Shown here piece by piece: positions 53,569 to 62,902 of a stretch of DNA of 64,000 nucleotides. Source of the stretch: a bacterium. GTDB lineage: Bacteria; Myxococcota_A; UBA9160; UBA4427. Location: contig JANSYR010000007.1 in NCBI GenBank assembly GCA_024742285.1, positions 124,001-188,000 of the forward strand, given 5' to 3'. Positions within the stretch are counted from its first letter, which is position 1; each line of letters opens with the position of its first letter. The notes beneath the pieces are model-generated. The model was given only the letters and a program-made list of their open reading frames with translations. It was not told where the DNA came from and searched no databases. Made by a program: the position numbers and the translations under genes.

Positions 53569-55086
53569 ATGGCGGCGAACGATCGGATCGACGAGGACAC
53601 GAAGAGGCCCTCGCTCTCGCGGCGGGGCTTCCTGGGCGCGGTCGGCGTCGCCGGTCTGACCCTGACCGGCTGCGGCACCACCGGCGCCACCGCCCCGCGC
53701 GTGCCGGAGAACGACCTGCTCGACGGCGATGCCCTCGATCAGGCGGCGCGCATCCGGAGCGGCCAGGCGACCGCGGAGGAGATGGTCCAGGCGACGATCG
53801 ATCGGATCGAGGCGCTGAACGGCCCGATCAACGCCGTCGTGACCACCTTCTACGAACGGGCCCTGGCCCGCGCGGCCGGCCCGCTCCCGGAAGGCCCCTT
53901 CCGGGGCGTGCCCTTCCTGCTGAAGGACCTGAACGATCTCGAAGGGACGCCGAAGTCGATGGGCTCGCGGCTCTTCGAGGGCTTCGTCTCGACCGAGAGC
54001 TCGCCACACACGGAGGCCGTCCTCGAGGCGGGCTTCGTCGTCCTCGGCAAGACGAACACCCCCGAGTTCGGCCTGACCGCGACGACCGAGCCCGCCGCGC
54101 TCGGTGTCTGCCGCAATCCCTGGAACCTCGCGCATTCGGCGGGCGGCTCCTCGGGCGGGGCCGCCGCGGCGGTCGCCGCGCGCATGCTCCCGATGGCCCA
54201 GGCGAGCGACGGCGGCGGCTCGATCCGGGTACCGGCCTCGTGCAACGGCATCTTCGGACTGAAGCCGAGCCGCGGGCGAAATCGCGCCGCGCCCCAGACC
54301 CGCGCCGTCGACATCAGCGTGAAGCACAGCGTGAGCCGGAGTGTCCGGGATACCGCGGCCTACACGACGGTCGTCCAGCGTACGGACCCCGCAGCCCCCT
54401 TCGCCCCCCTCTCGTTCGTGGAAGGTCCGAGCGACCAGCGGCTCGAGATCGGCTTCTTCACGAAGAATGCCTATGGCGTCGAGGCGCATCCGGAGGTGAA
54501 GCGCTGCCTCGAGGAGACGGCGGCACTCTGCGACGAGCTCGGTCACGAGGTCGTTCCCACGACGATCGACTTCGAGGGCGACCGATTCCTCGAACACTTC
54601 CTCGATCTCTGGTGCTCGATCCCGGCTGGGATCCTGGAGCAGGTCCGGGCGCAGGGCCTCGATCCCGAAGCCGTGCTCGAACCGGTGACCCTCGGCATGG
54701 CCGAGCGGTTCGCGCGTGCGGGCGACGGGGCGATGACCCGGGCGGTGGACTTCTTCGAGGGCTACGGCGGCCGGATCGACGCCCAGCGTGCCGAGTTCGA
54801 CGTCCTGCTGTCGCCGGTGCTGCGGCGACCGCCGCTCCGGATCGGCGAGCAGGCTGGAACCCAGCCCTTCGACGAGGTCTTCGAGCCCCTCGTCGACTAC
54901 GTGTCCTACACCCCGATCTGGAATGCGACGGGACACCCGGGAATGTCCGTGCCCCTCGGCTGGACCACTGACGGACTCCCGATCGGCAGCCAGTTCGTCG
55001 CGGGTCACGGCGAGGAGGGACGGCTACTGGCGCTCGCCTACGAGCTCGAGGCAGCTCGTCCCTGGGCCGATCGCCGCCCGGCCTAG
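53569..55086 (+). CDS. Amidase-signature hydrolase with Tat/lipoprotein signal
   Basis: The 505-residue enzyme hydrolyses amide bonds by a Ser-cisSer-Lys triad. The N-terminus has a twin-arginine signal with lipobox (SRRGFLGAVGVAGLTLTGC, Cys35). Lys119 (FLLKDLND), Ser194/195 (AGGSSGGAAAAV) and Ser218 (DGGGSIRVPAS) make up the active site. Export of a folded enzyme to the envelope is implied. ATG 53569 follows AGGGGG; in-frame GTG codons at 53539 and 53563 are alternatives. It is followed by two GC hairpins. Confidence 0.9.
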   Translation: MAANDRIDEDTKRPSLSRRGFLGAVGVAGLTLTGCGTTGATAPRVPENDLLDGDALDQAARIRSGQATAEEMVQATIDRIEALNGPINAVVTTFYERALARAAGPLPEGPFRGVPFLLKDLNDLEGTPKSMGSRLFEGFVSTESSPHTEAVLEAGFVVLGKTNTPEFGLTATTEPAALGVCRNPWNLAHSAGGSSGGAAAAVAARMLPMAQASDGGGSIRVPASCNGIFGLKPSRGRNRAAPQTRAVDISVKHSVSRSVRDTAAYTTVVQRTDPAAPFAPLSFVEGPSDQRLEIGFFTKNAYGVEAHPEVKRCLEETAALCDELGHEVVPTTIDFEGDRFLEHFLDLWCSIPAGILEQVRAQGLDPEAVLEPVTLGMAERFARAGDGAMTRAVDFFEGYGGRIDAQRAEFDVLLSPVLRRPPLRIGEQAGTQPFDEVFEPLVDYVSYTPIWNATGHPGMSVPLGWTTDGLPIGSQFVAGHGEEGRLLALAYELEAARPWADRRPA

Positions 55087-55486: not shown

Positions 55487-55729
55487 ATGTCCAGGTCCAC
55501 GGGCGTCGTCGCGGCGCTCCTCGTCCTGGCGATCGCCTCGCCCGCCCACGCCTACCTCGACCCGGGCACGGGCTCCACGATCCTCCAGCTGCTGCTCGGC
55601 GGTGTGGCCGGCGCGATGGTGGTGCTCAACCTCTACTGGGCTCGCGTGAAGGCGTTCTTCGGAATTTCTTCCGACTCCTCGGCCAGCGAGGCCAGCCCGG
55701 AGAGCTCCGAGACGCCCGAACCGAGATGA
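55487..55729 (+). CDS. Small secreted/membrane protein with LDPGTGS motif
   Basis: The 80-residue protein has a signal peptide ending AHA (residues 20-22), then YLDPGTGSTILQLLLGG (23-39) leading into one membrane helix and a short Ser/Glu-rich cytoplasmic-like tail. Small proteins with A-Y-x-D-P-G-T-G-S are widespread and uncharacterised, and I have seen them linked to envelope or polysaccharide genes. Its stop overlaps the next start (ATGA at 55726-55729). The start has no good ribosome binding site. Confidence 0.75.
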   Translation: MSRSTGVVAALLVLAIASPAHAYLDPGTGSTILQLLLGGVAGAMVVLNLYWARVKAFFGISSDSSASEASPESSETPEPR

Positions 55730-57141
55730 CCCGATCCGACGAAGGTCGCGTGCCGGGATCCTTTCGGGATCCTTCGGGTCGAGTCCATCTCGTGGACGGT
55801 CGCGTCTTCCGGACCGTGACCGACCGGGCAATCGAGGACTTCGAGTTCGTCCGCGACTCCGGCTTCTACGACGACATGGTCCGGGCCGGTCGAGTGATCG
55901 CCGCGACACCGGTCGATCGCGAGACCCACGACCGCGTCGACCCCGAAGCCAGCGTCGTCGTCGAGCACCCTCGCCTCCCGGTCGTCTCGTATCCCTACGA
56001 GTGGACGTTCGCGCAGCTGAAGGTCGCCGCCCTCCTGCACCTCGATCTCCAGATCGAGGGCCTGGCCCGCGATGTGATGCTCTCCGACGCGACGGCCTAC
56101 AACGTCCAGTTCATCGGCGCCGAACCGATCTTCATCGACACGCTCTCCTTTCGCCGATACCAGGAGGGTGAGTACTGGGCGGGCCATCGCCAGTTCACCG
56201 AGCAGTTCCTGGCGCCCCTCCTGCTTCGCTCGATGTTCGGGATCGCGCACAACAGCTGGTATCGCGGGCGCCTGGAGGGCATCCCCGGCGCGGACCTCGT
56301 CGCGATGCTCTCTTTCCGCCAGAAGCTCTCCTTCCGCGTGCTGACCCACCTGGTCCTCCCCGCTCGCTTCGACCGTTCGGCGAGGTCGAGCGGCCTCGAG
56401 GTCGACAAGCAGAGCCTCGAGCGCGCCACCCTGCCCCGCGCCGCGCTCGAGCGGATGTTCGCGAAGCTCCGGTCCTGGATCGAAACCCTCGAGCCCAAGG
56501 ATGCGGACGAGACCACGGTCTGGAAGGACTACGCCGGCCAGACGAGCTACGTCGAAGAAGAGACCCAGCGCAAGCGGGACATCATCGAGGGCTTCGTCCG
56601 GGAGTTCTCGCCGAAGATGGTCTGGGACCTCGGCTGCAACAGCGGCGACTACTCGGAGCTCGCGCTCGAGAGCGGTGCCGAGCACGTCGTCGGCTGGGAT
56701 TTCGACGACGGCGCGCTCGCAGCCGCATTCGACCGGAGCCGCACGAAGAAGCTCGCCTTCACGTCGCTCTACTTCGACGCGGCCAACCCGGCGCCGAATC
56801 AGGGATGGGCCGAGAGCGAACGCGAGGGGATGCGAGACCGAGGCCCCGCGGACGCGGTCTTCGCCCTCGCCTTCGTCCACCACCTCGCGATCGCGAAGAA
56901 CGTGCCTCTCGACGACGTCGCCGCCTGGCTGACCTCCGTCGGCCGGAGCGGCGTCGTGGAGTTCGTCGACAAGGACGACCCGATGGTGAAGAAGCTCCTC
57001 GTAATGCGCGAGGACATCTTCGACGACTACTCGCTCGAGGCCTTCCTGGACGCGCTCGGCGCGCGCGCCGAGATCGTCCGCGTCGAGGCGTTGTCCACGC
57101 GCCACCTGATCACGTTCCGTACGAAAGACGGAGCGGCATGA
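55726..57141 (+). CDS. SAM-dependent methyltransferase, NoeA-like
   Basis: The 471-residue protein has an N-terminal domain of about 290 residues with blocks VSYPYEWTFAQLKVAALLHL, LSDATAYNVQFIGAEPIFIDTLSF and YWAGHRQFTEQFLAPLLL, which resemble NoeA-type methyltransferases of nodulation and polysaccharide loci. A class I methyltransferase fold follows, with the SAM motif VWDLGCNSGDYSELA and the strand VVGWDFDD. It overlaps both flanking genes by four bases. The methyl acceptor is unknown; a surface glycan is a reasonable guess. Confidence 0.82.
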   Translation: MTRSDEGRVPGSFRDPSGRVHLVDGRVFRTVTDRAIEDFEFVRDSGFYDDMVRAGRVIAATPVDRETHDRVDPEASVVVEHPRLPVVSYPYEWTFAQLKVAALLHLDLQIEGLARDVMLSDATAYNVQFIGAEPIFIDTLSFRRYQEGEYWAGHRQFTEQFLAPLLLRSMFGIAHNSWYRGRLEGIPGADLVAMLSFRQKLSFRVLTHLVLPARFDRSARSSGLEVDKQSLERATLPRAALERMFAKLRSWIETLEPKDADETTVWKDYAGQTSYVEEETQRKRDIIEGFVREFSPKMVWDLGCNSGDYSELALESGAEHVVGWDFDDGALAAAFDRSRTKKLAFTSLYFDAANPAPNQGWAESEREGMRDRGPADAVFALAFVHHLAIAKNVPLDDVAAWLTSVGRSGVVEFVDKDDPMVKKLLVMREDIFDDYSLEAFLDALGARAEIVRVEALSTRHLITFRTKDGAA

Positions 57142-58739
57142 CCGAGCCGAGCCCCGGGTCCGAGAATCCCGAGAGCCCATCCGGATCCTCCGACCTGCTC
57201 GGCCGCACGATCCTCTGCTTCCTGATCCTCTGGATCCCCGTCTACTCTCTCGCCTCCATCCACGGCGACGTCTTCTCGCCGCTCCCGATCGTCTACTCCG
57301 CCGTCGTCTTCGCGGTTCCCGCGGTTCTCTGCGCCGCAGCGCTGGGCGGGATCGAGCGCCGCCGTCGCGCCGTCCTGCTGGGCGTGCTGGTCGCCTTCTT
57401 CCTCGACCTCCAGATGCCCGGAATCGGCAGTCTCGTTCTGGTTGCCGTCGCGGTCGGCCTGGGCGCCCTTTTCTGGGTCATGCGCGAGAACGTGCTGCGG
57501 ATCCTGCTGGCGACCTTCGCCACGGTGCTCGCGTCGATGGTGCTCTTCCCGGGCACGAGCGCGGTCCCCGCGTCCGACCGAGCCGACGACGTCGCGACGT
57601 CCGAAGCGACCGCCGTCGGCCAAGGGCTCTACCTCCACCTCTTGCTGGACGAGTTCGCAGGCCCCTCCGGAATGCCGATGGACTTCGAGGCGACGGCGGC
57701 CCAGCGCGAACGGCTGGTCGGGTTCATGGACCGGTACGGGTTCAGCGTCGCCGAGGGATCCCGAGCGACCTACTACTCGTCGGTCGACTCGATCTCCGAC
57801 GTCCTGAACTTCGGGACGCTCGACCCGGAGAACCCGATCTACAGCGGCAAGCACCCCTACGTCCTCGAGCAGAACGCCTACTTCGAGCGCCTGGGAGGCG
57901 CGCGGGGCGCGCTTCGTGTCGTCCAGTCCGACTACATGGACTTCTGCACGCATGCCCCGGTCGAGCTCGCCGTCTGCCGCACCTACCGACACGACGGCAT
58001 GGGGTGGCTCGACGGAGATGCGTGGGACGCGAGCTCGAAGACCCGGATCCTGCTCGGCATCTACGGCAATCGGCAGGGTTGGATCGAATTCGTGATGAAG
58101 CGCGTGCGGCGCACGCACCGGGCCCTCGCGAACGCAGGCCTCGAACTGCCGACGATCCTCGCCTGGAACGGGACCCTGGCGCCCCTGAACGGCATGGAGG
58201 CCCTCGAGCAGCTCGAGCGCGACGTGCTCTCCGGACCCGCCGACGCGACCTGGTTCGCCCATCTGCTCGTGCCCCACTCGCCCTACGTCTTCGACGCGAG
58301 CTGCGAGATCCGCCGCGATCCCTACCGGTGGCTGTCGAACCACCCGCGCTATCTGAAGAGCAACGACGAGGCCGGGCGAGCGATCCGGTACGCGCAGTAC
58401 GCGGAGCAGATGGCCTGCACCCTCGACCGGCTGGCGGACTTCTTCGACGCCCTCGACCGCGCGGGGCGGCTCGAGAACGCGACGATCCTCGTCCAGGGGG
58501 ATCACGGTTCGCGCATCTCGCTCCTCCCGCTCAGGGACGTGGACCGCGAGGACGAGACCGGGCCCCACGTCCGAGACGTCTACGACGCGATCTTCGCGAT
58601 CCGGAGCCCGCTCACGCGAGACCTGCCCCTCGACGCGAAGGAGTCGCTGCCGAGCCTGCTCGACGGCTCGAGTCTCTCCGTGCTCACGCCGGGCTCGGAC
58701 GACGCCCCCGGGCGCGTGGCGGGCACCGACGCGCCGTAG
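57138..58739 (+). CDS. Membrane-anchored sulfatase/alkaline-phosphatase-fold protein
   Basis: The 533-residue protein has four or five N-terminal membrane helices (about residues 22-150) and a periplasmic alkaline-phosphatase-superfamily domain. The first metal motif may be LLLDEFAG (near 169), where sulfatases have D-D/E; later motifs are HLLVPHSPYVFD and ILVQGDHGSRISLL, which provide His, Asp and His ligands. A clear Cys/Ser-x-P-x-R sulfatase signature is not seen, so it may be a phosphotransferase or phosphodiesterase. ATG 57138 overlaps the methyltransferase stop, making a coupled three-gene cassette. Confidence 0.78.
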   Translation: MTEPSPGSENPESPSGSSDLLGRTILCFLILWIPVYSLASIHGDVFSPLPIVYSAVVFAVPAVLCAAALGGIERRRRAVLLGVLVAFFLDLQMPGIGSLVLVAVAVGLGALFWVMRENVLRILLATFATVLASMVLFPGTSAVPASDRADDVATSEATAVGQGLYLHLLLDEFAGPSGMPMDFEATAAQRERLVGFMDRYGFSVAEGSRATYYSSVDSISDVLNFGTLDPENPIYSGKHPYVLEQNAYFERLGGARGALRVVQSDYMDFCTHAPVELAVCRTYRHDGMGWLDGDAWDASSKTRILLGIYGNRQGWIEFVMKRVRRTHRALANAGLELPTILAWNGTLAPLNGMEALEQLERDVLSGPADATWFAHLLVPHSPYVFDASCEIRRDPYRWLSNHPRYLKSNDEAGRAIRYAQYAEQMACTLDRLADFFDALDRAGRLENATILVQGDHGSRISLLPLRDVDREDETGPHVRDVYDAIFAIRSPLTRDLPLDAKESLPSLLDGSSLSVLTPGSDDAPGRVAGTDAP

Positions 58740-58796: not shown

Positions 58797-60848
58797 CTAG
58801 GATCGCGGCTCGACCCAGATCGCCGACGTCCACGCCCGCTCCTGCTGGATCGGCGAATAGAAGGGCTCCGCTTCCGGGTCGAGGCAGCACTTCCCGTAGA
58901 CGTCCCCCTGCGCGCCCCGCTCATGGGCGGCCGCCGTCGCCGCCTCGGCCTGCACGGCACAGGACGCCGCGAACGGATTCACGCCGGCCGCCTGACACTG
59001 GAGGGTGCTCCAGCGGCAGGTCGGATTCTCGAGCACACGCACGTAGTAGAACGCGGAGTCCGAGGCGTTCCAGTCCGGGTCGGTCCATACGTCGCAGAGG
59101 CTCGACGCCCCTGAACCCGTCGGCGCACAGGTCTGCGGATCGACCGAGGCGCCGTTGTCCGCTTCTCCCGCAACGTCGTAGACGCGCTCCCGGCTCGATC
59201 CGTCGGCTCCGACCCAGCCCTTCACGATCTGGATGCGCTGGAGGTCGGTGCCCGGATGTCCCGGCGCCCCGGGATCCTTGAGCGCGCTCACGAGGAAGCG
59301 CGGTGATGCATCGGTGGCCTCGACCTCGAGCCGCCCGCCCATCGGAACGCCCTCGGAGTAGGCTCGAGCGACCATGTCCGGCGCGCCGCAGAGATCTTCC
59401 GAGAGCGCTGCCCCCGCGAAGAAGCGGACGATCGGCCGCGTCCCGCTCGTGGCGTAGGTCTCCTTGCGACGCATCCCGTCGAAGATCGCGTCCCGGCTGT
59501 TCTCCTCGGCCCAGACCACCGCGTGCCCGCCCGGGTTCGAGAAGAAGTGGTCCTGGACGTTCCGGTAGCCCGCGTCCCGACGTCCGAGATGACCCACGTA
59601 GTTGTCCTCTTCGGCACTCCCGGGCGTCGCGCTGTGGGTGTCGGTGCTGCCGATGAAGCCGAAGACGAAGGGGTTGGTCCCGGAATCTCGGCCGAGCTCG
59701 AGCCCCGCCTTGAGCGCGTTTCGCGCCATGTTGCGCGGATGGAACTCGTCGAGGGGAACGGGGGCCGCCTGCTCGGTCATGACTTCACCGTGGACCGAAC
59801 CGAGCATGCTCAGGTTGTCCGCGACGACCTGCTCGTAGGTGCAGAGCTCGTCCTCGGTCAGGAGGCCGCGTCCCTCGAGGCGATCGAAGCGACACTCGGA
59901 GGCGCCCTTGTGCTGGGTCAGCTCGATCACGGGCTCGAACTTGATCCGATCGGTCGCTTCGCGCGGGGTCTGCGGATCGCGGAACATGAGCCCCGCGGCG
60001 AGGTTCGGGTTGTGCGGGATGGCGAGCACGTCGCAGCCGATCCCGGCGTCGAGACAGCGCTCCTGCAGCAGCTCCCAGAGGATCGGGAAGTTGTAGGGGC
60101 CGGTGTCGTAGGTCGAGACGGGACTCGCCGGGACGCTGGCGTTCCGGAAGATGACGTTGCGGTGCATGTTCGCCGCGTTCGGCGCGTCGGTGTACTCGTA
60201 GCCGACGAAAGTCGTGAAGGCGCAGTCCTCGGACCGGTCGTAGTGGGTCTCCGCCGCCGCCTGGATCCGATCCCATGCGCTCGTCGCCGCCTCGTCGCAG
60301 TCGGAGAGGGTGCAGGCGAAGCTCTGGCTGACCTCCTCGGTCTGGATCCCGCCCAGGGTCGTCCACCAGTTCGCCGCCAGCAGCTGCGTCCAGTAGTGAT
60401 TCGAGCGGGTCATCACGCAATGGGGCCACCAGTAGCCGAGACGCCACGGGTCCCGGGTGCAGACGTCGATCGGACCGAGATACTCGGAGTGGTCGGTGAT
60501 CCCCGCGAAGTCGAGGGGGCGCTGGAGCTGGGCCCGAACCGTCTGCTCGCCGTCCTCGTTCGGCAGCGTGATCGGCTCGCCCCTGGCGAAGCGATAGGCG
60601 TCGTCGGGCTCGTTCCGCTGACTCGAGATGTAGGAATCGAAGGAGTAGGCGGTGTGGACGTGGAGATCGCCGAACATCGGCTTGCGAAGCGGATCGTGGT
60701 CGGCGCAGGGCGCGCGCTCCTCGGAGTAGCGCCGCTCGGCGTCCGCGCCAGCCGACGCCTCGTTCTGCGCAGACGTCGGGAAGGACGGGACGAGGAGCGC
60801 AGCGACGAACGTCAGGAAGAACGGAATGCGAAGCGCGTGGGTCGACAT
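58797..60848 (-). CDS. DUF3604-family secreted protein (PHP-like metal site)
   Basis: The 683-residue protein starts at ATG (complement of 60846-60848) with a signal peptide (FFLTFVAALLVPSFPTSAQ). After it, PMFGDLHVHTAYSFDS gives a D-x-H-x-H metal motif, with GITDHSEY, IPHNPNLA and IGSTDTHSATPG further on. These are the marks of DUF3604, which resembles PHP/amidohydrolase-type metal phosphoesterases. The reaction is unknown. It is the third gene of a minus-strand run after a second DUF3604 and an MBL-fold gene. Confidence 0.88.
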   Translation of the reverse strand: MSTHALRIPFFLTFVAALLVPSFPTSAQNEASAGADAERRYSEERAPCADHDPLRKPMFGDLHVHTAYSFDSYISSQRNEPDDAYRFARGEPITLPNEDGEQTVRAQLQRPLDFAGITDHSEYLGPIDVCTRDPWRLGYWWPHCVMTRSNHYWTQLLAANWWTTLGGIQTEEVSQSFACTLSDCDEAATSAWDRIQAAAETHYDRSEDCAFTTFVGYEYTDAPNAANMHRNVIFRNASVPASPVSTYDTGPYNFPILWELLQERCLDAGIGCDVLAIPHNPNLAAGLMFRDPQTPREATDRIKFEPVIELTQHKGASECRFDRLEGRGLLTEDELCTYEQVVADNLSMLGSVHGEVMTEQAAPVPLDEFHPRNMARNALKAGLELGRDSGTNPFVFGFIGSTDTHSATPGSAEEDNYVGHLGRRDAGYRNVQDHFFSNPGGHAVVWAEENSRDAIFDGMRRKETYATSGTRPIVRFFAGAALSEDLCGAPDMVARAYSEGVPMGGRLEVEATDASPRFLVSALKDPGAPGHPGTDLQRIQIVKGWVGADGSSRERVYDVAGEADNGASVDPQTCAPTGSGASSLCDVWTDPDWNASDSAFYYVRVLENPTCRWSTLQCQAAGVNPFAASCAVQAEAATAAAHERGAQGDVYGKCCLDPEAEPFYSPIQQERAWTSAIWVEPRS

Positions 60849-60913
60849 ACCCGAGAGTCTATGGGCAGTACGCGGCGCGAGCACCCTCGAATCGATCGGC
60901 CTTTCGGCCTCGG

Positions 60914-62902
60914 CTACGACGCTGGCGAGTACCAGATCGGCGACGTCCAGGCGCGCTCCTGGATCGTCGTCGGCACCCGAGGATCACTGCAGCCGTCGGG
61001 GCGCTCGTCCTCGGGCAGCGTGAGGCAGAGCCTCGCCGACCAGCGACAGCTGGGATTCTCGAGCACCCGCGCGTAGTAGACCGCCGCGCGCCCGGCATCG
61101 AAGTCGGGATCGCGCCACACCGAGCAGAGCGCCGTGGCGCCCTGCCCTCGTGGCGCGCACGTCGCCGGGTCCACGCCTGCGGACGGATCCGGACCACCGG
61201 CGACGTCGACCACGGACTGATGGAACTCGCCCTCGTCGCCCACCCAACCCTTGACGATCTGGATCCGTTGGAGCGAGGTCCCGGGACGCTCGGGCGTCCC
61301 CGGGTCCTGCATGGCCGACAGGAAGAAGGCCGGCCCCCGGTCGCCCCGGAGAGGAGGAAGATCTCCCCCCATCGCGACGCCCATCGCGTCGGCGCGTGCC
61401 AAGCCGTCGGGCGCCGCGCATAGATCCTCCGGCAGATCCCAGCCCGCGAACAAGCGCGGCGCGATTCGCGGCCCGCTCGTCGCGAAGGTCTCCCGCCGCT
61501 TCATCGCGTCGAAGAGTGCATCGCGACTGTTCTCCTCCGCCCACACGCCCGCGAGGCCACCGGGATTCTGGAAGATCCGCGGCCTCACGGCCTCGCCGAT
61601 CGTGAGCATCGACTGCGCGTCCGACGGCGGGAACTTGCCGACGAAGTCGGACTCCTCCGTCGCGCCCGGCGTACCGCGGTGGGTATCCGTACTGCCGATG
61701 AAGCCGAAGGCAAAGGGGTTCACGCCGATCCGTGCCTGCTCGGCGAGCCCTTCGACGAGTGCATACCGCACGAAGTCCACCCGCGAGGTACAGCCTCTGG
61801 CCTTCTGCGCGCCCTCGCCGACGCCGTCACCGCAATCCTCCGCCGGCTCGTTCCAATCGCGGATCTTCTCGAAGCCGCAGAACTCGTCCTCGCCCCCGAG
61901 CACGCCCGCGAAGCCGTTTCGACACTCGGACTCGCCCTTCACCTGCATCATCTCGACGATCGGTTCGAGCCGCGCTCGGAGCGCGGCGGCCTCGCGTTGC
62001 TCTCCCCGGGGCAGCTCGAGCCAGGGCAGCGCGAACTGATGACCGTTCGAGAGGTTCGGGTTGTGCGGGATCGCGATCGCTTCGCAGCCGGTATCCGTGT
62101 CGAGGCAGAGATCGCGGAGACGCTCCCGGAGAAGCGCCTCGTTCGGGGTGTCGATCCAGGACAGCGGGAGCTCCGGGCCGATCTCGTTCCGGAGCACGAT
62201 GTTTCGGTGGATCTTCGTGCTGGCGGTCGAGCGACTGTACTCCCAGGCGTGGAAGGTCGTGAAGGAGCAGGCCGCGCTTCGGTCGTAGTGGCGCTCCGCC
62301 GACCGCTGATTCTCGGCCCAGACCGTGCCGAGCCGCGCGCGACAGCGGGAAAGGTCCTCGCCGCAGACCTCGCGATTTCGCCCGTCGAGGTCGACGACGC
62401 CGAGCACCTTCGCGCGAAACCCCTTCAGGCCGAGGACCGTCGCCAGGAGCGTGCTCTCTTCGGATCGGTAGATCCGACACGAGCGCGTGTCGTAGACCGC
62501 CGAAGCGGGATCCAGACACAGCGCGGTCTCCGCCATCCACTCCGCGTGGTCCGTCACCGCCGCGAAGTCCAGCGGACGATCGAGTCGCGCGAGGCGCTCG
62601 GCACGCCCCTGCTCGTCGAAAGGAGCGAGCGCGACCTCCTCGCCCTTCGCGAAGCGGTAGGCGTCGTCCGGCGTGGTTCTCGTGCCGTGCAGCTGGGCGT
62701 CCATCGACACCCCCGTGTGTACGTGCAGATCCCCGTAGAAGGGGCGCCGAAGGGGATCCCGATCCGCACAGGGCTCGCGGGGCGCGATCGTCTGGCTGCG
62801 AGCCGGGCCGATCGGCGTCTCCCAGTCCTCGAGCCCGGGGTCGAAGCCGCAGCCCGCCGAGAAGACGGCCGACAGCGCGATGGAGCACAGCGTGCGCCTC
62901 AT
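60914..62902 (-). CDS. DUF3604-family lipoprotein
   Basis: The 662-residue protein has a lipoprotein signal (LCSIALSAVFSAGC, Cys18) and the same core as its neighbour: PFYGDLHVHTGVSMDAQL, AVTDHAEW, IPHNPNLSNG and IGSTDTHRGTPG, then a C-terminal region ending with QERAWTSPIW. It is clearly a paralogue of the downstream gene, differing in membrane anchoring. ATG 62902 has AAGGA upstream. Both are probably periplasmic or outer-membrane-associated hydrolases. It follows the MBL-fold gene by 33 bp. Confidence 0.88.
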   Translation of the reverse strand: MRRTLCSIALSAVFSAGCGFDPGLEDWETPIGPARSQTIAPREPCADRDPLRRPFYGDLHVHTGVSMDAQLHGTRTTPDDAYRFAKGEEVALAPFDEQGRAERLARLDRPLDFAAVTDHAEWMAETALCLDPASAVYDTRSCRIYRSEESTLLATVLGLKGFRAKVLGVVDLDGRNREVCGEDLSRCRARLGTVWAENQRSAERHYDRSAACSFTTFHAWEYSRSTASTKIHRNIVLRNEIGPELPLSWIDTPNEALLRERLRDLCLDTDTGCEAIAIPHNPNLSNGHQFALPWLELPRGEQREAAALRARLEPIVEMMQVKGESECRNGFAGVLGGEDEFCGFEKIRDWNEPAEDCGDGVGEGAQKARGCTSRVDFVRYALVEGLAEQARIGVNPFAFGFIGSTDTHRGTPGATEESDFVGKFPPSDAQSMLTIGEAVRPRIFQNPGGLAGVWAEENSRDALFDAMKRRETFATSGPRIAPRLFAGWDLPEDLCAAPDGLARADAMGVAMGGDLPPLRGDRGPAFFLSAMQDPGTPERPGTSLQRIQIVKGWVGDEGEFHQSVVDVAGGPDPSAGVDPATCAPRGQGATALCSVWRDPDFDAGRAAVYYARVLENPSCRWSARLCLTLPEDERPDGCSDPRVPTTIQERAWTSPIWYSPAS

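Follow-up and report, generated by a model that had tools for sequence, protein, structure and literature searches.

In this work we analyze a cassette of three genes in a 64,000-nucleotide stretch of bacterial DNA (hereafter the window: positions 124,001 to 188,000 of contig JANSYR010000007.1, assembly GCA_024742285.1, lineage Myxococcota_A). The cassette is a member of a noeAB-type cell-envelope module, in which a small membrane protein bearing the motif LDPGTGS constitutes a third core part beside homologues of NoeA and NoeB, two Medicago host-range proteins of Sinorhizobium meliloti. The module comprises the following features of the window.

55487-55729, + strand: gene for the small LDPGTGS membrane protein (80 residues, starting MSRSTGVVAALLVLAIASPAHAYLDPGTGSTILQ)
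55726-57141, + strand: gene for the NoeA homologue (471 residues)
57138-58739, + strand: gene for the NoeB homologue (533 residues)
55726-55729, + strand: ATGA stop/start overlap between the small gene and noeA
57138-57141, + strand: ATGA stop/start overlap between noeA and noeB

The 471-residue protein is 47% identical to S. meliloti NoeA over 97% of the query (E 9e-119). For the 533-residue protein, a family profile that includes one rhizobial NoeB (that of S. medicae, from locus L096) matches NoeB over its full length with a profile-profile probability of 100 (E 5e-59, 497 columns), and a direct tblastn search against the noeB downstream of S. meliloti noeA yields weaker but independent matches (E 6e-7 and better). 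Compared with the copies in a genome of the same genus (G004), the ratio of nonsynonymous to synonymous substitution rates (dN/dS) is 0.15 for the small gene, 0.14 for noeA and 0.33 for noeB, and given these low values all three open reading frames (ORF), the small one included, look real and under purifying selection. An earlier reading of this DNA from its letters alone (the sequence-only reading) had noted both ATGA overlaps and the resemblance of the second protein to NoeA, and both observations hold. It had also described that protein as a methyltransferase, which is accurate for one half but misses a kinase-like domain, and the third as a membrane protein of sulfatase fold; the latter is indeed a membrane protein of the alkaline phosphatase (AlkP) fold and a NoeB homologue, but not a strict sulfatase, its nucleophile position holding Ser or Thr and no Cys.

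The three-gene order, whose absence from other genomes the same reading had named as a refutation, recurs far beyond rhizobia. Among 80 loci picked by NoeA from Proteobacteria, Acidobacteria, Planctomycetes, Chloroflexi, Nitrospirota, Pelagibacteraceae, Firmicutes and other groups, the small gene lies immediately upstream of NoeA on the same strand in 75, with an overlapping start possible at 55 of these 75 junctions, and an AlkP-fold gene is found within 800 bp in 63, a count made with trimmed seeds. When NoeA and the small protein are each sought independently across 284 genomes of the window's phylum, strong NoeA matches occur in 26, all 26 with a small gene within approximately 600 bp, and the five small genes without NoeA all adjoin an AlkP-fold gene. 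Across 398 genomes from the phylum to which a Thermincola genome belongs, each of the 8 small genes is accompanied by NoeA, an AlkP gene or a PF04464 domain, and so are 22 of the 28 small genes across 337 genomes from the class that contains Sinorhizobium. Clustering of the other neighbours, assessed by eye, reveals only scattered glycosyltransferase and sugar-nucleotide genes, and hence no larger fixed operon around NoeA.

Such an arrangement could in principle reflect gene order without any physical or biochemical unit, with neighbouring envelope genes being co-transferred horizontally. The patchy presence of the module within a family (16-17 of 61 relatives) is what a transferable cassette would produce, but the AlkP genes, which lie downstream on the same strand in 43 of the 63 loci, upstream on the same strand in 11, upstream on the opposite strand in 8 and downstream on the opposite strand in 1, and whose identity to the window's NoeB falls as low as 14%, look repeatedly recruited. 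Overlapping starts and the gene fusions described below also favour a unit, and we regard mere co-transfer as very improbable. As a separate observation, seven Acidobacteriota loci, several of them from Thermoanaerobaculia (L084, L085, L086, L093, L097, L102, L118), carry NoeA and an adjoining small gene with no AlkP gene within 7 kb; their AlkP partner may be located elsewhere in the genome.

The small gene is also present in the symbiosis operon from which NoeA and NoeB take their names. On pSymA of S. meliloti 1021, a 71-codon ORF starting MPIIMSVVGFLILSIVPAHAYLDPGTGSMLVQ (L066:4092-4307, corresponding to NC_003037 ~419091-419306) sits between nodL and noeA, overlapping the start of the latter. 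The order nodL, small YLDPGTGS gene, noeA, noeB is common to S. meliloti and Rhizobium sp. T1470, where the small gene between nodL and noeA is annotated as a hypothetical protein, and dN/dS between the two small ORFs is 0.24. The small YLDPGTGS gene is thus an overlooked fourth gene of an operon named for three, nodL-noeA-noeB (Ardourel et al. 1995, as related in PMC9048898 and PMC9758233). Both noeA and noeB have been known as Medicago host-range genes since 1995, their effect on the Nod factor still being a hypothesis (PMC9048898), and a truncated noeA has been tentatively linked to the failure of S. meliloti M162 to nodulate 17 of 27 Medicago truncatula genotypes (PMC4053727).

The 80-residue protein of the window consists of a signal-peptide-like hydrophobic start ending in AHA|YLDPGTGS, one transmembrane helix (~31-49), the segment YWARVK and an acidic tail. 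Its homologues share the consensus AxA-Y[LI]DPGTGS-xILQ, followed by a membrane helix, YWxxIK and a charged tail, and in the most conserved part of their alignment Y, D, G, S and Q are invariant. In most homologues the motif directly follows a signal-peptide-like stretch ending in AHA or similar, while in some phyla this stretch is lacking and the protein starts shortly before the motif (L074, L118, L135, L136, L141). Judging from the positive charges, both forms would be compatible with the motif facing the periplasm and the C-terminus lying in the cytoplasm. The profile of the small protein matches homologues adjoining NoeA across many phyla, mostly with E 1e-14 to 1e-26, so that coincidence does not explain the motif. 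The protein was assigned to no Pfam or NCBIfam family, and weak matches to TrbC, DUF6332 and holins were rejected as hydrophobic-helix similarity. A literature search, with most subscription journals outside its scope, returned nothing for LDPGTGS and only an unrelated use of DPGTGS. Related small proteins in three loci (L297, L298, L299) carry Y[ILV]GPG[AV]G in place of LDPGTGS and are possibly a sister family; by eye, a sulfotransferase-like gene directly follows the GPG-type small gene in L298.

Comparison of 130 small-protein loci, 110 with NoeA and 20 without (three of the latter having the GPG motif), reveals a second version of the module. Within the examined stretch, genes of the PF04464 type (cytidine diphosphate (CDP)-glycerol-phosphotransferase-like) occur in 14 of the 20 loci without NoeA and in none of the 110 with it (Fisher p 2e-14), and the phosphonate-biosynthesis pair of phosphoenolpyruvate (PEP) mutase and phosphonopyruvate decarboxylase in 6 of 20 and 0 of 110, respectively (Fisher p 6e-6), both tests being uncorrected for phylogeny and the search profile having been built from ten of the same loci. 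In seven loci (L182, L183, L292, L293, L295, L301, L305) the N-terminus of the PF04464 enzyme carries a fused LDPGTGS segment, and L294 has a degenerate version of the segment joined to an AlkP enzyme. The main fusions place the PF04464 enzyme after the membrane helix, which is where NoeA would dock on a separate small protein. Because NoeA is exchanged for PF04464-type enzymes and phosphonate genes, phosphorus chemistry is indicated for the module.

The natural fusions of the LDPGTGS domain to enzymes lend support to the scaffold or adaptor role that the sequence-only reading had assigned to the small protein; that reading had also named the motif's NoeA and AlkP partners correctly, but missed its other main partner, the CDP-glycerol-phosphotransferase-like enzyme. 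Together with the gene partners, the fusions suggest that the small protein is a membrane anchor coupling an inner phosphate-handling enzyme to an outer AlkP-fold enzyme. One could instead read it as an activator or lid subunit of the AlkP enzyme, with YLDPGTGS shaping the active site and NoeA linked only at the level of the pathway. An AlkP neighbour is kept in most small-gene loci without NoeA, the L294 fusion joins these very two parts, and the most conserved part of the small protein would face the periplasm. The small gene nevertheless follows NoeA (75/80 and 26/26) more faithfully than AlkP does (63/80), it persists in loci without a nearby AlkP gene, and most fusions join a PF04464-type enzyme; we therefore deem a lid subunit unlikely and retain the anchor.

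Several further observations concern these loci. The pair of PEP mutase and phosphonopyruvate decarboxylase lies a few kb from the LDPGTGS small or fused gene in L180, L182, L183, L292, L293 and L322, which mostly also carry an AlkP or PF04464-type gene and are probable phosphonate decoration clusters. YidC-like (60KD_IMP) domains are fused to an AlkP domain (L182:4229-7057) and to a PF04464 enzyme (L294:7051-9180), and a stand-alone YidC-like gene stands beside an LDPGTGS fusion (L301:4474-5139); a dedicated insertase for LDPGTGS segments with their N-terminus outside is a possible role. The literature, searched with the same scope as above, yielded nothing on PepM together with a glycerophosphotransferase or on YidC-sulfatase fusions.

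The NoeA homologue is predicted to combine a kinase-like domain (~10-260) with a class I S-adenosylmethionine (SAM) methyltransferase domain (~262-471, motif D301-L-G-x-N-x-G), in agreement with Krysinska et al. 2022 (PMC9758233), who described the NoeA family as joining a protein-kinase-like domain to a methyltransferase. Its AlphaFold2 (AF2) model has a predicted local distance difference test score (pLDDT) of 94 and a predicted template modelling score (pTM) of 0.93, and displays the order of a kinase C-lobe: helix 95-113, D121, N126, strands 127-130 and 133-136, D138 and helix 154-171. FKRP, the sole PDB sequence match of the kinase-like domain (E 2.6), was rejected. In the C-domain, Pfam Methyltransf_12 is matched with E 2e-5, below the curated cut-off of that family, and the fold matches ChlM (Z 18.3, root-mean-square deviation (rmsd) 2.8 over 175). 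The phosphate methylators MePCE (6dcc, Z 17.6, rmsd 3.2 over 188) and BCDIN3D are among the fold matches, but they are tied with dozens of other methyltransferases and we draw no inference from them.

Whether the kinase-like half acts as a kinase bears on a further alternative, plain O-methylation of a glycan or lipid, whereby the N-domain would be non-catalytic and bind substrate, and NoeB would remove or hydrolyse an unrelated phospho- or sulfo-group. No active kinase family is matched significantly by the sequence of the domain, the published analysis of the NoeA/Lani_1194 family found no ion-pair Glu, and Arg in place of Lys72 (PMC9758233), and S. meliloti noeA and noeB have been described solely as host-range genes, with Nod factor modification hypothesised. 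Conversely, R29, D121, N126 and D138 are invariant in an alignment of 72 diverse sequences, which would be unusual for a dead domain, and the occurrence of CDP-linked phosphotransferase-like enzymes and phosphonate genes in the place of NoeA points to phosphorus chemistry. O-methylation alone hence strikes us as improbable, and we favour a phosphoryl-handling module.

The model of the NoeB homologue (pLDDT 83.9) has five transmembrane helices (18-41, 48-71, 74-92, 98-114 and 119-136), followed by an alkaline-phosphatase-superfamily domain predicted to be periplasmic. The AlkP active-site residues of the window protein are D171, the nucleophile S215, H375, H380, D455 and H456; D171, H375, H380, D455 and G457 are invariant in the NoeB-type alignment, and position 215 is Thr in 36 of 40 sequences, Ser in 4 and Cys in none. 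Identity as a formylglycine (type I) sulfatase was rejected, there being no C/S-x-P-x-R and the window protein having YYSSVDSIS around position 215. The predicted domain matches the folds of LtaS (Z 18.6, rmsd 3.9 over 270) and EptC (Z 18.5, rmsd 4.3 over 277), and EptA is among the Foldseek matches of the model.

The identities of the genes, their linkage, the fusions, the exchange pattern and the active-site residues are direct observations, and the folds are predictions. For the topology of the module, the physical contact among its parts, its phosphoryl chemistry and its substrate or acceptor, we infer the following mechanism. The small protein would reside in the inner membrane, its YLDPGTGS end facing the periplasm; the basic segment and charged tail would lie on the cytoplasmic side, where the tail would seat NoeA. 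NoeA would phosphorylate an acceptor linked to the membrane (probably a sugar carried on a lipid, or else the head group of a lipid) and methylate the phosphate or its neighbourhood; an EptA/LtaS-like NoeB in the periplasm would then transfer or trim a phosphodiester group on the outer face, making a surface glycan or lipid the presumed target. In a parallel version, a CDP-glycerol-phosphotransferase-like enzyme, often fused to LDPGTGS, would act instead of NoeA, in some loci with phosphonate-biosynthesis genes. To the mechanism as a whole (the anchor, phosphoryl transfer and methylation by NoeA, and the periplasmic step of NoeB) we assign an even chance. A broader proposal, which we hold somewhat more tentatively, is that the LDPGTGS domain is a general membrane dock of an undescribed class of systems for phospho-decoration of the envelope, in which the cytoplasmic head can be exchanged (NoeA, or a CDP-linked polyol or phosphonate transferase, in some cases together with a YidC-like insertase) and an AlkP-fold enzyme finishes the work in the periplasm, and that S. 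meliloti adapted one of them, the overlooked fourth gene included, for its Medicago host range.

Against these readings weigh several points. Six of the 28 alphaproteobacterial small genes have no NoeA, AlkP or fused PF04464 domain, comprising three with the different GPG motif, one at the edge of a contig, one within a phosphonate cluster and one orphan, and approximately 20% of the NoeA loci, for example in Thermoanaerobaculia, have no nearby AlkP gene. The sampled loci are not independent of one another phylogenetically. The kinase-like assignment lacks sequence significance: hhalign aligns the catalytic loop of the N-domain with that of RIO kinases with p 0.0025 but a probability of 12%, which is not significant, and comparison with APH gave nothing. 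A PDB fold search with the NoeA model listed only methyltransferases, the kinase-like domain being crowded out. Lastly, true sulfatases match the NoeB domain as well as LtaS and EptC do (Z 18-20).

In its genomic context, the cassette forms a unit of its own, as the upstream neighbour on the + strand ends at 55086, 400 bp 5' of it, and the downstream neighbour (58797-60884, - strand) is convergent with it. Simple consensus searches found no promoter- or terminator-like sites at the cassette, a result of little weight for a GC-rich host genome. A second LDPGTG-like DNA match in the genome, at ~54219 of the window, was rejected for lying out of frame within an amidase-like gene. Downstream, 58797-60884 and 60914-62902 on the - strand encode tandem proteins of ~690 and ~660 residues that appear paralogous by eye.

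Taken as new are the third core part of the module, the gene overlooked in the symbiosis operon and the exchange of NoeA for phosphotransferase and phosphonate genes, for which we found no description in the literature within the scope given above. By adding the missed operon gene and indicating phosphorus chemistry, the comparison makes the action of NoeA and NoeB testable, and it suggests that the noeA/noeB pair derives from a widespread envelope module, present also in Pelagibacter-type ocean bacteria and Legionellales. It further gives LDPGTGS a consistent context, nearly always beside or fused to phosphoryl-handling enzyme families in these samples.

Among known systems, the nodL-noeA-noeB operon shares with the cassette homologous noeA and noeB genes in the same order and a small YLDPGTGS gene just upstream of noeA, but a nodL homologue is absent from the 64-kb window and the window NoeB is ~20% identical to that of S. 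meliloti; the NodA family gave no match in the 95%-complete host genome, but neither did it in any control genome. The PF04464 family replaces NoeA in small-protein loci, often fused to the LDPGTGS segment, but is a different protein family and is absent from the window. The Lani_1194 family has the same kinase-like and methyltransferase architecture. Conserved genes flank it on either side, with frequencies of 65% and 38% among 816 loci, and it has an AlkP-fold, NoeB-type neighbour; Lani_1193 and Lani_1195 were read as likely effectors, the text leaving the LDPGTGS motif unmentioned (PMC9758233). Since Legionellales locus L098 has a small gene in that place, Lani_1193 is a likely candidate for the small LDPGTGS protein.

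WbdD of Escherichia coli O9a uses a kinase and a SAM methyltransferase to cap a glycan with methyl phosphate (PMC3482155). Like NoeA, it unites both domains in one protein, phosphorylating a lipid-linked glycan and then methylating the phosphate, but its domain order is reversed and it has an extra coiled coil, and the comparison is one of analogy. We know of no LDPGTGS or AlkP partner of WbdD. EptA/MCR, LtaS and PbgA/YejM resemble the NoeB homologue in their five transmembrane helices and periplasmic AlkP domain, Thr/Ser nucleophile position and metal-ligand pattern, but are 10-12% identical over the fold, for which true sulfatases score equally. The window NoeB thus has the layout of EptA/LtaS-type membrane phosphotransferases.

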